NCBI RefSeq assembly: GCF_014192335.1
Contig: NZ_JACHXU010000009.1
Location: 62,001 to 126,000 of the forward strand
Direction: 5' to 3'
DNA: 64,000 bases
From: Aporhodopirellula rubra
GTDB lineage: Bacteria > Planctomycetota > Planctomycetia > Pirellulales > Pirellulaceae
The notes under the pieces were generated by a model. The model saw nothing but the letters and a program-made list of their open reading frames with translations, did no database searches and was not told where the DNA came from. Below, one piece after another: positions 5,071 to 48,039 of this stretch. Position 1 is the first letter of the stretch, and the number at the start of each line of letters is the position of its first letter. The position numbers and the translations under genes are program-made.

Positions 5071-7470
5071 ATGATGGCGAAATGGATAATGGGATTGATG
5101 ATCGCGAGTTTGGCTTCGCTGGCGCATGCGCAGGATACTCGCCAGCATTTTGCGGTTGCCCCGACACAACCCGCGGAACTGTTTCCGCTCTCCGCGGTTC
5201 GCTTGCTCAGTGAAAGCCAACTCAGTGCTGCGGTGAACGCGAATCGAGAGTATTTGCTCGCCCTTGAACCCGATCGATTGCTGGCTCCGTTTCTTCGCGA
5301 GGCAGGCCTCGAGCCGAAAGCGGAATCCTATGGCAATTGGGAGAGTAGCGGGCTTGATGGGCACACGGGCGGTCACTACTTATCCGCCCTGTCATTGATG
5401 GTGGCTGCCGGTGCCGACACCAGCGATGGGGAGCTAAACCGTCGTTTGGACTACATGCTCGATGAATTGGAACGTTGCCAGAACGCCGATGGCGGCGGCT
5501 ATATCGGTGGGGTGCCGGGAAGTCGAGAATTGTGGACGAAGGTGGCAGCGGGTGATACAGGTGCGGTCTGGAACAAATGGGTCCCCTGGTACAACGTTCA
5601 CAAATCGTTTGCTGGTCTACGTGACGCTTATCTTGTTGCGAACAAGGAAAAAGGACGCAAGTTGCTGGTGCGTCTCGGTGACTGGTGTGTCCGCGTCACC
5701 GCCGATCTGTCTGACGACCAGATGCAAAGCATGCTCAACAACGAGTACGGCGGAATGAATGAAGTGATGGCTGATATCTATTCCATCACCGGTGATAAAA
5801 AATACTTGAAGACTGCCGCACGATTCAACCATCGGGCGGTCTTCGATCCGCTGATAGCTCACCAAGACCGGCTGACCGGTCTGCATGCGAATACGCAAAT
5901 CCCTAAAATCATCGGCATGGAACGCATCGCCGCGCTGATCGGCGATCCGCGGGAACATGACGGAGCCCGCTTCTTCTGGGACACGGTATCAAAGAACCGA
6001 TGTGTGGCGTTCGGTGGCAACAGCGTACGAGAACATTTTCACCCGTCCGACAATTTCATCGAATTGCTGAAGGACCGGGAAGGTCCGGAGACCTGCAACA
6101 CATACAACATGCTGCGTCTGACGGAGCAGCTATTCACGGCCGACCCGAAGGCTGTCTATGCCGACTTCTACGAGCGAGCGTTCTTCAACCACATCATCTC
6201 GGCGATCAATCTTGATAAGCCGGGCTACGTTTACTTCACGCCGATCCGTCCTCAACATTACCGCGTTTATTCGCAGCCCGAGAACTGTTTCTGGTGTTGT
6301 GTCGGCACTGGAATGGAAAACCCCGGTCGCTACGGGCAGTTCATCTACGCAAAAGCGAACGACGGCGTTTATGTGAATCTGTTCATTGCTTCCGAACTGC
6401 AAGTGAATGACCGTTTCGCAATTCGTCAACAGACAGCGTTTCCGTACGAATCGGTGACACGGCTAGAAATGAAGCTGAAACAACCTCAGGAGCTGACGCT
6501 CTATCTTCGACATCCCGAGTGGGTCAAGACGCGACAACTGACCGTCAAAGTCAACGGCCAACCTGTCGCCGTGGAATCGACGCCTTCGTCGTATGCCGCA
6601 GTGCGTCGCTTGTGGAAACAGGGAGATGTCGTGGAGGTCGAATTGCCGATGCACACCCGCGTCGAGCGTCTCCCGGACGGATCCGATTGGGTAGCGTTGT
6701 TGCATGGCCCGATTGTGTTGGCGAGCCCGACCGGAACAAAGGACTTGCCCGGTTCGTTTGCCGATGGAGCTCGGATGGGCCATGTGGCAAACGGGCCGAT
6801 GGTTCCGCTCGATGAAGTACCAGTATTCTTCGCGACGGACCAAGAACTTCCCCGTCACGTTGTGCGGGATCCTTCGGGCAAACCGCTGCATTTTCGTGTT
6901 AAAGACGTCGTGTCTCCGGACTCGCCGGGCGGGATCTCGCTGAAGCCGTTTCTCAGTCTGCATGAGCAGCGATACCAGATGTATTTTGAACTCACGTCGC
7001 CCGAAAAAATGTCAGCATTGAAGGAGCAACGTGCAGAAGAAGATCGAACGCGTGCGACTCGCGAAGCCGCCACAATCGATCAAATCACAATTGGTGAACA
7101 GCAACCGGAAGTGGAGCATGATTTCAAAGGTGAGGACACCGAAACCGGAATGCACGAAGGCCGTAAATGGCGGCATGGATCCATAATACAGTACACGTTG
7201 AACACTCGCGGTGAAAAAGCAGCGGAACTGGAGGTAACCTACTGGGGCGGTGATAGCGGTCGGGCATTTGACATCTTTGCCGGTGGAACCAAGATTGCGT
7301 CGCAAGAATTAACCGGCGACCAACCTGGAAAGTTCATTTCGATAAGGTATCCAATTCCGGCAATGGCGTTTGCGGATGCAAAAGACCATACGCTGACCGT
7401 GAAGTTCATCGCTACCAAGTGGCTTGCAGGTGGCCTGTACGATGTCCGTCTGATGAAACCAACTCGATAA
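5071..7470 (+). CDS. Secreted GH127-family (DUF1680) beta-L-arabinofuranosidase
   Basis: About 799 residues from the ATG at 5071; a second ATG at 5074 and a GTG at 5047 are possible starts. MAKWIMGLMIASLASLAHAQ is the signal peptide. The alpha/alpha-barrel is followed by beta-sandwich domains. Zinc-thiolate chemistry typical of GH127 is visible: Glu340 and Cys342 in GPETCNTYN, then Cys406, Cys409 and Cys410 in ENCFWCCVG, one of which would be the nucleophile. A tail after about residue 650 has a charged linker (residues near EEDRTRATREA) and a further beta domain. Family members remove beta-L-arabinofuranose from plant glycans; the related family GH146 cannot be excluded. It is the last enzyme of the left glycosidase block, 78 bases after the GH43-GH10 gene. 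Confidence 0.87.
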   Translation: MMAKWIMGLMIASLASLAHAQDTRQHFAVAPTQPAELFPLSAVRLLSESQLSAAVNANREYLLALEPDRLLAPFLREAGLEPKAESYGNWESSGLDGHTGGHYLSALSLMVAAGADTSDGELNRRLDYMLDELERCQNADGGGYIGGVPGSRELWTKVAAGDTGAVWNKWVPWYNVHKSFAGLRDAYLVANKEKGRKLLVRLGDWCVRVTADLSDDQMQSMLNNEYGGMNEVMADIYSITGDKKYLKTAARFNHRAVFDPLIAHQDRLTGLHANTQIPKIIGMERIAALIGDPREHDGARFFWDTVSKNRCVAFGGNSVREHFHPSDNFIELLKDREGPETCNTYNMLRLTEQLFTADPKAVYADFYERAFFNHIISAINLDKPGYVYFTPIRPQHYRVYSQPENCFWCCVGTGMENPGRYGQFIYAKANDGVYVNLFIASELQVNDRFAIRQQTAFPYESVTRLEMKLKQPQELTLYLRHPEWVKTRQLTVKVNGQPVAVESTPSSYAAVRRLWKQGDVVEVELPMHTRVERLPDGSDWVALLHGPIVLASPTGTKDLPGSFADGARMGHVANGPMVPLDEVPVFFATDQELPRHVVRDPSGKPLHFRVKDVVSPDSPGGISLKPFLSLHEQRYQMYFELTSPEKMSALKEQRAEEDRTRATREAATIDQITIGEQQPEVEHDFKGEDTETGMHEGRKWRHGSIIQYTLNTRGEKAAELEVTYWGGDSGRAFDIFAGGTKIASQELTGDQPGKFISIRYPIPAMAFADAKDHTLTVKFIATKWLAGGLYDVRLMKPTR

Positions 7471-44436: not shown

Positions 44437-45579
44437 ATGCCATCTACCAATCCCATCGCACTTTTGCCGCGACAAGCACGCGCCGGCTCGGTGACTGTTT
44501 TGCTGGTCGTGTTGCTTCCCGTGCTATTCATGCTTTCATCCTACGCGATCAACATCGCCTACGTTGAAGCCGTGCATGCGGATGTTCAGATAACGACCGA
44601 CGCGGCGGTGCAGGCAGCGGGGCGTGCCTACATTCAGAGCGGCGATGAAAATGCCGCGTTGCTGGCCGCTCAAGACGCGGCGGCACGAAACCCCGTTTCA
44701 GGCAAAACGATACCGATTGTGGCGTCAGATCTCGAATTTGGATCGAGCTTACGTACATCCATGTCGACCGGCTATGACTTCACACCGGTATCCGGCGAGG
44801 AGGAAGGCAATGCCGTGCGATTGACGACCAACAATCTTCGCAACGCCACCACGCCAATATTCTCGCCGGTCTTTCCCACGATGGGCGTCGACTTGCAAAT
44901 CCGGCCTCACCGCACCGCGGTAAGTACGCAGAGCACGATGGACGTTGCCTTGGTACTCGACCGAAGTGGCTCGATGGCATTCGCCAGCGACGAGGTCGCC
45001 GATCCCTACACAACTCCCGCCGCAGCGCCTGCCGATTGGTGGTTCGGCGACCCGGCACCACCGAACTCTCGTTGGCTCGATGTGATCGCGTCGGTCCAAT
45101 CATTCAAAAACTATCTCGAAGCGTCACCTCAGAAAGAAAAGCTATCGGTGTCGACCTATTCCGACACCACCTCAACCGAACAAATTCTAACCTTCGATTA
45201 TCAACACATTCTCGACGGCTTGGGGCAGCACACCGGCCAGTTCAATGGCGGGGGAACCGCCATCGGAAAAGGACTGCAAGAAGGCCTCGCCGCGATCACC
45301 GACGCCTCCGTCGCCCGGCCCTATGCGGTCAAGGTGATGATTCTGCTGACCGATGGGATCCACAATACGGGAACGAGCCCCGAATCGGTTTCATGGAGTC
45401 TAAAAAATGCAGGTGTCACCCTTTTCACGATCACCTTCAGCAACGAGGCCGGACAGAATCGGATGAAGAACCTCGCCGAGAATTGTGGCGGGCTGCACTT
45501 CCACGCGGTCGACGCGACTCAACTCACTACCGCGTTTGAAGACATTGCTCGGCGACTCCCATCACTCATGACACAATGA
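44437..45579 (+). CDS. TadG-like membrane protein with von Willebrand A domain
   Basis: 380 residues. The N-terminal transmembrane segment GSVTVLLVVLLPVLFMLSSYAINIAYVE is typical of TadG/Flp-associated proteins (pfam TadF/Flp pilus assembly). A linker follows, and then a VWA domain from about residue 165. Its MIDAS motif is complete: DVALVLDRSGSM, the Thr in GGGTAIGKGL, and LLTDGIHNTG. It is probably an extracytoplasmic adhesion or assembly component anchored at the N-terminus. The stop overlaps the start of the next gene (ATGA at 45576-45579). Confidence 0.85.
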   Translation: MPSTNPIALLPRQARAGSVTVLLVVLLPVLFMLSSYAINIAYVEAVHADVQITTDAAVQAAGRAYIQSGDENAALLAAQDAAARNPVSGKTIPIVASDLEFGSSLRTSMSTGYDFTPVSGEEEGNAVRLTTNNLRNATTPIFSPVFPTMGVDLQIRPHRTAVSTQSTMDVALVLDRSGSMAFASDEVADPYTTPAAAPADWWFGDPAPPNSRWLDVIASVQSFKNYLEASPQKEKLSVSTYSDTTSTEQILTFDYQHILDGLGQHTGQFNGGGTAIGKGLQEGLAAITDASVARPYAVKVMILLTDGIHNTGTSPESVSWSLKNAGVTLFTITFSNEAGQNRMKNLAENCGGLHFHAVDATQLTTAFEDIARRLPSLMTQ

Positions 45580-46217
45580 CCATGATCCCACTCTCAATAA
45601 ATCGTCGCCGATCTGATTGCAACGTGGGGAATTCACGCATGGGCAATCGTGTCGGTGCAGCCGCCGTTGAAATGGCAATCGTGTCGGTCGTTCTATTTGC
45701 CGTCATCATCAGCAGCATCGAGATGTCTCGAATGTCGATGCTGCGTCATTCGGCAGACTACTCCGCCTACCTCGGCGCCCGCGTCGGGATCATCACCGGC
45801 GCCAACACATCGGATATCGAAGCCCGAGTTGACGATCACCTTTCGAAGATCGGTGTTAAAAATGCGGTCGTCACGGTCACTCCCGCAACGATCACCGAGG
45901 CAACCACTCAGGTCAAAGTTGAAGTCGCGATCCCGGCGACCGGAAATAGCTGGATCACACCGAAACACTTCACCGGTTCGGTGGTGGGACGTTGCACACT
46001 GCTCACCGAACGGTCGGCAATGGTGATGAGCCAATCGATGCCAACACCCCCTCCGCCACCACCGGAACCCGAGCCAGAGCCGGAACCAACGCCTGATCCC
46101 GAACCGACTCCCGATCCGGAACCCACTCCCGATCCGGAACCGACACCTACCCCCGATCCTCCGGCACCGGATCCGGAACCCGAACCAGATCCGGAACCAC
46201 CGCCACCGATGCTGTAG
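45576..46217 (+). CDS. TadE-like pseudopilin 2 with proline-rich C-terminal repeat tail
   Basis: 213 residues, starting inside the stop of the VWA gene. RVGAAAVEMAIVSVVLFAVIISSIEMSRMSML is the TadE-type membrane segment with its Glu, followed by SADYSAYLGARVGIITGAN and a short periplasmic domain. The C-terminal 58 residues or so are made only of Pro, Glu, Asp and Thr with PTPDPE-type units. Such a tail, rigid and acidic, is not part of the normal TadE fold. It could span the wall or periplasm. The three genes form one transcription unit, closed by a hairpin at 46230-46261. Confidence 0.82.
   Translation: MTMIPLSINRRRSDCNVGNSRMGNRVGAAAVEMAIVSVVLFAVIISSIEMSRMSMLRHSADYSAYLGARVGIITGANTSDIEARVDDHLSKIGVKNAVVTVTPATITEATTQVKVEVAIPATGNSWITPKHFTGSVVGRCTLLTERSAMVMSQSMPTPPPPPPEPEPEPEPTPDPEPTPDPEPTPDPEPTPTPDPPAPDPEPEPDPEPPPPML
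46041..46214 (+). repeat. Tandem repeats coding for a Pro/Glu/Asp/Thr tail
   Basis: A 174-base stretch inside the second TadE-like gene built from near-identical units of the form CCGACTCCCGATCCGGAA, with shorter CCGGAACC units at both ends. It encodes (PxPDPE)n. Such DNA is prone to unit gain or loss, so length may vary between strains. Confidence 0.85.
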
Positions 46218-46339: not shown

Positions 46340-47077
46340 TCAACCGCCGAACATGGCAATGGCACTATCGACCTCTTCGATCGTCAGGCTGGATTGTCGG
46401 CGTGACTCGGGATCAACGCAGGTGTCTCGCAGAAGCGGTGTGTCGAGACTGCCCAAACCGCGGTGGCGAATTTTCTGAAAACCAGTGACGCCGTGTCTCC
46501 GCAGCGTCTCTTCAATCCCATTAGCGTGCTCGGGACTCGATGCGACAGGCCACTGTGAGGGATCACGCTCAACATCGCCGGGCAAACGGAACACAAACAT
46601 CGGTGGACGGACCACATGCACGCGTCCCGATCGAATCAAGTCGGGAGAAAACTTTCGAAAGAAAGCCATCATCAGAACACCACAGTGGATGCCGTCGGCA
46701 TCAGGATCCATCAACAGAATGATGCGTTCATAGACGCACTGCTGCGACGACGCCAACTTCGACCTTGCGTCGTCCGCACCCTGAGCATCGGCCGGGCGGA
46801 AACCGAGTAGCGTTTCAAAGATTCGTGTGAAGACTTCGTTTTTCGATACCGCCTCACGTCCCGCCTTGAGTGCATTGAGCGGTTTGCCTTGCAGCGCGAG
46901 GATCGATTGAAAACGATCGTCACGAACTTGGTCGACTGATTTCGCAGCACTATCGCCTTCGACGATCAGGCATTCGGTCCCCGCAACGGTGGTACGGATA
47001 CCAGGTGAGGCGGCCGAACCGACCGCCCCAACAGCCCCGCACGGGTAGTGGGTCGGCTGTCTTCCATACGCGATCAA
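46340..47077 (-). CDS. Orphan GyrB/ParE-type TOPRIM protein lacking the ATPase domain
   Basis: 245 residues starting at a TTG that overlaps the kinase stop (TTGA at 47077-47074). The sequence parallels only the second half of type IIA topoisomerase B subunits: ECLIVEGDSAAKSV (Glu40; compare EVEGDSAGGSA in GyrB), FQSILALQGKPLNALKA, LLMDPDADGIHC with Asp124, Asp126 and Asp128 of the metal site, FSPDLIRSGRVHVVRPPMF, and RHRGLGSLDTPLLRDTCVDPE, which matches the KGLGEM tail. All metal-binding acids of TOPRIM are kept. The GHKL ATPase and transducer domains are missing, and no GyrA partner is nearby. It is probably co-translated with a Ser/Thr kinase. Function unknown. Confidence 0.82.
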   Translation of the reverse strand: MIAYGRQPTHYPCGAVGAVGSAASPGIRTTVAGTECLIVEGDSAAKSVDQVRDDRFQSILALQGKPLNALKAGREAVSKNEVFTRIFETLLGFRPADAQGADDARSKLASSQQCVYERIILLMDPDADGIHCGVLMMAFFRKFSPDLIRSGRVHVVRPPMFVFRLPGDVERDPSQWPVASSPEHANGIEETLRRHGVTGFQKIRHRGLGSLDTPLLRDTCVDPESRRQSSLTIEEVDSAIAMFGG

Positions 47078-48039
47078 ATCAGTTCCCGAAGATCCGCGAG
47101 CAAATCCCGCATTGACTGATATCGCTTTTCAGGACGCTTTTGAAGCGCTCGTGCCACGATGTCATCAATCGCTTTGGGGATATTGTACTGGGGCGACCTC
47201 TCACTCGGCGGTTCGATCTCACGATGCCGGATGTTTTCGAACGTTTCGTCGATCGTTTTGCCTCGAAACGGTTCACGAATCGCCATGACTTCGTACAAGA
47301 CGACACCGACGCTGAAAATATCCGTCCGTTCGTCAATCGTCCGGTTGCCGACGATTTGTTCGGGCGACATGTACAACGGCGTGCCCGGTCGTTGCCCACC
47401 GCCGGTCAGGGTTTGCAGTTGCGGCGTGTCGATTTCCGGTCGCAGTTCGAGCGAGCTTTCACGGATCGGCTCGTTATCGTCGGCATGTCCCCATACTTTG
47501 GCGACACCCCAATCGAGCAAAATCACCTCACCAAAGTTCCCAACCCAGATGTTCTCGGGTTTCACATCGCGGTGGATCACGCCTCGAGCGTGGGCATAGG
47601 CCAATGCCTGGCATGCCGCCCCGACAATTTCGATCCGGCGTGAAATCGGGAACGCCTCGATCGCCTGTTCGTCGCCACGAGCGATCCGTTTCAAGATTTC
47701 GAAAAGGTTCTCGCCTGAAATCCTTTTCATGACGAAGTAGACACCATCGATGTCATCTTCGCCGATGTCGTATACTGGGACCGTGTTAGGATGCTGCAAT
47801 TGAGCCGTCACACGGGCTTCCCGCAACAGTCGACGCCGTTCACGACGGTCGAATTTTGTTTCGGGCAGCAGCTTCTTGATTGCGACCGTACGTCCCGTCA
47901 CCGGGTCGAACGCGGACTGCAAGACTCCGGTACCTCCCCGCGCCATTTCTCGCGGCCCCGTGTATCGTTTTAGCCCGCGAGGCACATCCTTCGGCAAATC
48001 GGGATCGGTTCCCGACAGAATGATGGTGGGTTCGTTCAT
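47074..48039 (-). CDS. Ser/Thr protein kinase, cytoplasmic, coupled to the TOPRIM gene
   Basis: 321 residues. A full protein kinase domain is visible: ARGGTGVLQSAFD (glycine loop), VAIKKLLP (ATP Lys), HRDVKPENIWV (catalytic loop), LLDWGVAKVW (DWG for DFG, frequent in planctomycete kinases), GTPLYMSPEQ, and DERTDIFSVGVVLYEVM. About 45 residues of the activation region carry an extra acidic insert (HADDNEPIRESSLELRPE). There is no transmembrane segment and no sensor domain, so it is soluble and about domain-sized. It is translated just upstream of the GyrB-like TOPRIM gene, with overlapping stop and start, and is divergent from the DUF2007 gene. Confidence 0.92.
   Translation of the reverse strand: MNEPTIILSGTDPDLPKDVPRGLKRYTGPREMARGGTGVLQSAFDPVTGRTVAIKKLLPETKFDRRERRRLLREARVTAQLQHPNTVPVYDIGEDDIDGVYFVMKRISGENLFEILKRIARGDEQAIEAFPISRRIEIVGAACQALAYAHARGVIHRDVKPENIWVGNFGEVILLDWGVAKVWGHADDNEPIRESSLELRPEIDTPQLQTLTGGGQRPGTPLYMSPEQIVGNRTIDERTDIFSVGVVLYEVMAIREPFRGKTIDETFENIRHREIEPPSERSPQYNIPKAIDDIVARALQKRPEKRYQSMRDLLADLRELI

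Follow-up and report, generated by a model that had tools for sequence, protein, structure and literature searches.

The large topoisomerase subunit of T4-like phages is split over separate genes (gp39 and gp60), and the T4-like system also encodes the ATPase half. In E. coli, GyrA2 combined with the 47-kDa TOPRIM half of GyrB, a laboratory-made fragment of residues 393-804, is reported to relax DNA without ATP (PMC7897471). Here we describe a two-gene locus in a 64,000-nucleotide stretch of the Aporhodopirellula rubra genome (contig NZ_JACHXU010000009.1, positions 62,001 to 126,000; hereafter the window). On the minus strand, a gene at 47074..48039 encodes a soluble Ser/Thr protein kinase of 321 amino acids, and the gene downstream of it, at 46340..47077 with a TTG start, encodes a 245-residue protein consisting of the TOPRIM domain and tail, i.e. 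half of GyrB/ParE. The kinase stop and the TOPRIM start share four bases (TTGA, 47074..47077, minus strand). Both open reading frames and the shared bases were confirmed at the coordinates given by the original prediction. As judged by its family, its residues and its predicted fold, the product of the downstream gene is a type IIA topoisomerase B subunit reduced to its TOPRIM half, standing alone and with its catalytic residues conserved. The new element is such a half as an independent gene.

Against Pfam, the TOPRIM protein scored 44.4 bits for Toprim (PF01751; gathering cut-off 23.1) and 20.0 bits for DNA_gyraseB_C, below the cut-off of 29.8. The best NCBIfam GyrB/ParE model gave 101.8 bits, far below its cut-off of 740, and the listed models were matched from position 405 or later (e.g. 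421-614 of 641). Only the last third of GyrB/ParE is thus covered, in agreement with the original prediction, and neither the GHKL ATPase nor the transducer domain was found in the Pfam and NCBIfam scans. A TOPRIM fold was predicted by structure prediction. A PDB sequence search returned type II topoisomerases only, and the best 50 fold matches were bacterial gyrase, topoisomerase IV or phage topoisomerase. Among viral folds (BFVD), the matches were topoisomerases and, further down, primases and unnamed proteins; the T4-like split large subunit appeared among both the PDB and the BFVD matches.

The acidic metal site proposed earlier is complete in the window protein, and it is invariant in the family. 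Over 64 TOPRIM proteins, Glu40 (VEGDSA; codon 46958..46960, minus strand), Lys65 (QGKP; 46883..46885, minus strand) and, within the metal-site motif DPDADGIH (Asp124-His131; 46685..46708, minus strand), Asp124, Asp126, Asp128 and His131 are each found in 64/64. The DPDADGIH motif had been used to collect 35 of these proteins. The metal-site Asp residues are present in all 29 that were collected without it, so the invariance is not undercut by the manner of collection. The family signature is DPDADGIH(C), as against DADxDGxH in the TOPRIM domain of ParE. In an unrooted tree of the 64 TOPRIM proteins with 6 ParE and 16 GyrB, in which several long rows are unsurely placed, all 64 lie on one side of a branch of length 1.76 with support 100/100. 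They form a single clade, and the window protein falls outside the GyrB and ParE clades on the opposite side. The family is under purifying selection, with dN/dS of 0.05-0.20 in 12 close TOPRIM pairs; four kinase pairs gave 0.016-0.032, and some dS values exceed 1.

We quantified how widely the stand-alone TOPRIM gene occurs. It is present in 13/13 genomes of the window's genus. Within the order, a DNA pattern (DPDADGIH plus TG) matched 53 of the 296 genomes searched, namely 16 from family f1 and 37 from family f8; in the rest of the phylum it matched none of 380 sampled genomes. That phylum search covered 392 genomes in all, 12 of them from the order, and its one match was the window's own. 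The pattern is exact and therefore misses diverged members; two genomes (G292 and G255) were found by profile without a pattern match. Searching 159 f1 genomes with a profile recovered the stand-alone form in 34 (237-316 bits, open frames of 218-386 amino acids), clearly apart from ParE and GyrB, which reached at most 176 bits. The 34 leave aside a degenerate copy in G251 (L182, about 6000-6620), a very diverged sequence with an end branch of 3.36, whose wider match contains a single in-frame TGA and which is possibly decaying.

A scan of named genome contigs yielded two loci, namely Aporhodopirellula aestuarii (75%) and a full-length ParE of Ramlibacter. Plasmid and phage records gave 173 and 743 matches; the best 10 of each were considered and two of them examined, one being a full-length B subunit with an A subunit next to it and the other a stand-alone member on the Thiodictyon plasmid pTs417 (L137:4956-5636). 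The latter has 226 amino acids, is annotated as a toprim domain-containing protein, and is the sole TOPRIM-family protein recognised outside the window's order among the matches listed. It begins 30 bases after a gene for an RNB-domain ribonuclease, itself preceded by a helicase gene, and this context perhaps means a different use of the protein. With the Thiodictyon protein as query, no second close relative appeared in the best 15 of the 173 plasmid matches. As two of these best matches in all were examined, there may be other stand-alone members on plasmids and phages. A viral origin was rejected, since viral contigs gave 0 pattern matches and 0/149 candidate stretches was confirmed.

The original prediction held that partner subunits are absent. 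This is correct at the locus itself and not for the genome, which encodes a full GyrB, a ParE and two A subunits, all away from this locus. The TOPRIM protein is therefore an extra rather than a replacement. We surveyed 49 chosen genomes, 31 with the TOPRIM gene and 18 without. Each carries one or two A subunits (PF00521; interpreted as GyrA, accompanied or not by ParC) and one or two B subunits (PF00204) with open frames of at least 637 amino acids. A spare A subunit or a free ATPase half as partner was rejected, as neither was found in these 49 genomes. ParE itself is patchy, being present in 66 of the 159 f1 genomes, and it is enriched with the TOPRIM gene (31/34 genomes with it vs 35/125 without), the genomes being related. 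Nor does any functional partner recur across genera beside the TOPRIM gene when 44 loci outside the genus are clustered: the largest shared neighbour family is prepilin-like (13 genomes, in varied places), and the other clusters are near relatives or antisense open reading frames.

The kinase scores 140.9 bits against Pfam Pkinase (cut-off 31.7), and the aligned relatives share the motifs VAIK, HRDVKPEN, DWG and SPEQ. The catalytic motifs are intact, HRDVKPEN and DWG included, as had been noted. The proposed coupling is kept through the genus: the kinase lies directly upstream of the TOPRIM gene in 13/13 genomes, with a four-base NTGA overlap in 12 and a 12-base gap in G001. Residues near the overlap are conserved among genus relatives. 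The overlap is thus real in the genus and suggests co-expression of the two proteins. Identity to the window's proteins within the genus is 46-76% for the TOPRIM protein and 75-93% for the kinase; because the linkage was kept while TOPRIM identity fell this far, it is long-lasting. Genes named by reading surround the pair. A divergent DUF2007-like gene is kept in 11/12 relatives. Downstream genes vary: those in the window, G001, G010 and G012 are of Tad type, which the flanking sequence retrieved for the other nine does not contain. In the window, a TadE-like open reading frame (45576-46217), which ends in a C-terminal tail of repeated Pro-Glu-Pro-Asp, belongs to a Tad/vWA-type cluster that runs convergently to the TOPRIM gene.

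Outside the genus the linkage disappears. Of the 159 f1 genomes, 43 carry a close relative of the window kinase (E up to 1e-120). Six of these relatives are doubtful orthologues, since their identity of 61-64% makes them as distant as the paralogue within the window genome (61%). The kinase is present in 26 of the 34 genomes with the TOPRIM gene. Eight of the 26 belong to the window's genus, and in the other 18/18 the two genes are on different contigs or far apart. Moreover, a window-type kinase adjoins the TOPRIM gene in 0/55 loci outside the genus (44 + 11); in 12 kinase loci read outside the genus, the kinase's neighbours were asparagine synthase-like and glutamine synthetase-like genes, among others (named by reading). 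A conserved kinase neighbourhood across planctomycetes, the lack of which the original prediction had named as a refuting outcome, is contradicted by these counts, and a kinase-TOPRIM system general to planctomycetes was rejected. The link to the kinase was thus added at the level of the genus and does not define the TOPRIM protein.

One alternative concerns the kinase only and is compatible with any function of the TOPRIM protein: in the ancestor of the genus the TOPRIM gene came to lie behind a kinase gene, and it has remained there through operon inertia, with no shared function. We consider this nearly as probable as its opposite. It fits the separation of the genes in all 18 other genomes having both, and the DUF2007-like gene has likewise been kept. 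Kinases are also abundant (49-94 in each of six genomes counted), and a same-strand kinase directly upstream is expected by chance at about 0.6-0.7% of loci, taking 1,300 bases as the space per gene and 65% as the share on the same strand. Against inertia stands the four-base overlap, preserved in 12/13 genomes though TOPRIM identity drops to 46% and the downstream genes change. A second genus, g14, also speaks against it: in 3/3 of its loci (L050, L172 and L173; 3 of the 55 outside loci), an unrelated kinase lies 168-184 bases upstream of the TOPRIM gene, two of these kinases having 853 and 823 amino acids and the third (L173) being truncated where its contig ends. Over some 20 contexts, however, with an expectation of about 0.6% for each locus, this could be chance. 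In L050 and L172 an ECF sigma factor-like gene, named by reading, precedes the kinase. Finally, in G272 alone (L162), ParC-ParE is followed after 45 bases by a relative of the window kinase (after about 81 when counted from a likelier start of that kinase), which would also count against inertia. It is not found beside ParC-ParE in the genus-mates G737 and G752, and we give it little weight because rough arithmetic puts the chance of one such case among 35 genomes at about 6%.

What, then, does the TOPRIM protein do? The most likely function, which we hold tentatively and at somewhat less than even probability, is an A-subunit-dependent, ATP-free cleavage or relaxing complex. By analogy, we favour it because the family is that half of the B subunit, its metal site is conserved, and A subunits are present in the same cells. 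The TOPRIM half would dock on the resident A subunit (GyrA, or ParC where topoisomerase IV exists) in place of GyrB or ParE, and the resulting complex would carry out ATP-independent cleavage-religation or relaxation much as E. coli GyrA2/GyrB47(2) does. In the window's genus, we infer that the stop/start overlap would make TOPRIM translation depend on kinase translation and so set the dose of the TOPRIM protein; the kinase may also phosphorylate it or its A partner. Taken as a whole, the boldest reading is that these planctomycetes encode a natural half topoisomerase working without ATP, in which a dedicated TOPRIM subunit recruits GyrA or ParC to form a relaxase or cleavase of the topoisomerase II-prime type (the name given to A2/B47(2)), and that in one genus a translationally coupled Ser/Thr kinase switches this activity; we regard it as unlikely.

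Several observations weigh against an A-subunit-dependent complex and its kinase control. The stretch from RGL to the end measures 38-63 residues (median 44), whereas four distinct ParE genes from this phylum have 65; being shorter, the TOPRIM proteins mostly lack about 20 C-terminal residues, which may help to hold the A subunit. The Arg of the topoisomerase RGK motif is Gln in 60/64 of them, and 64/64 have Arg in place of the Lys of KGLGEM. Among the loci read by eye, none showed a recognisable A-subunit gene adjoining the TOPRIM gene. Some genomes with the TOPRIM gene have no topoisomerase IV or ParE (6/6 tested in f8 and three in genus g11); ParC is therefore not required, and GyrA is the partner always at hand. 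In addition, the kinase occurs in 17 f1 genomes without the TOPRIM gene, the six doubtful orthologues included.

These same changes would suit a lone metal-dependent nuclease or nickase, acting on DNA or RNA, in which the acidic site hydrolyses and the A subunit has been given up: the catalytic residues are kept although part of the C-terminus has been lost and the RGK and KGL motifs have altered residues, and the Thiodictyon member follows a ribonuclease gene and a helicase gene. We nevertheless find a nuclease improbable, as no nucleic-acid gene recurs across genera (44 outside loci clustered and the neighbours of 55 judged by eye, not domain-scanned) and the sequence and fold matches described above point to topoisomerases. 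Still less probable is a decoy or dose-setting subunit, tuned by the kinase, that binds the A subunit and blocks GyrB/ParE. The missing ATPase and transducer, the full GyrB, ParE and two A subunits in the same genome, and the faster evolution of the TOPRIM protein than of the kinase would all fit; a pure decoy, however, need not keep its catalytic residues, whose conservation in the alignment argues for activity rather than passive blocking. Recent decay of gyrB or parE, to which the restriction of the match to the last third might point and which the original prediction had named as its other refuting outcome, is refuted by the separate clade on its long stem, the dN/dS values and the intact full genes in the genome.

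An ATPase-less GyrB half is known as a laboratory fragment, and here a conserved natural gene for it has kept the active site while the rest drifts. Such a gene would mean either that cells deliberately carry out type II cleavage or relaxation without ATP, or that the TOPRIM of topoisomerases has become available for a different reaction. In the one genus with the kinase coupling, phospho-control of DNA topology can be addressed directly with two small soluble proteins. Overall, an old, separate TOPRIM-half gene in some planctomycetes, joined in one genus to a kinase gene, raises the possibility of an activity on DNA topology that needs no ATP and is controlled by a kinase. Searches in an open-access library gave no description of the TOPRIM family or of the kinase-TOPRIM pair, which is not proof of absence. 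A report on another planctomycete describes GyrB paralogues and not this protein (PMC8567305).

Compared with known systems, the window kinase shares the Pkinase domain and the usual catalytic motifs with Hanks-type Ser/Thr kinases (PknB/PknD-like), scoring over the Pkinase cut-off with VAIK, HRDVKPEN and DWG in place, so we class it as Hanks-type. It differs in being a kinase domain only, with 220.2 bits against a cut-off of 839 for the PknD model. ParE of topoisomerase IV also carries the GHKL half that the window protein lacks, and the window's family is mostly about 20 residues shorter than ParE at the C-terminus. The T4-like topoisomerase likewise has B-subunit regions distributed over separate genes; unlike there, no orphan ATPase half accompanies the window's family in the 49 chosen genomes. 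The 47-kDa GyrB fragment and the window protein both consist of TOPRIM plus tail without ATPase and transducer, the former being a laboratory product and the latter a separate natural gene with changed RGK and KGL motifs.
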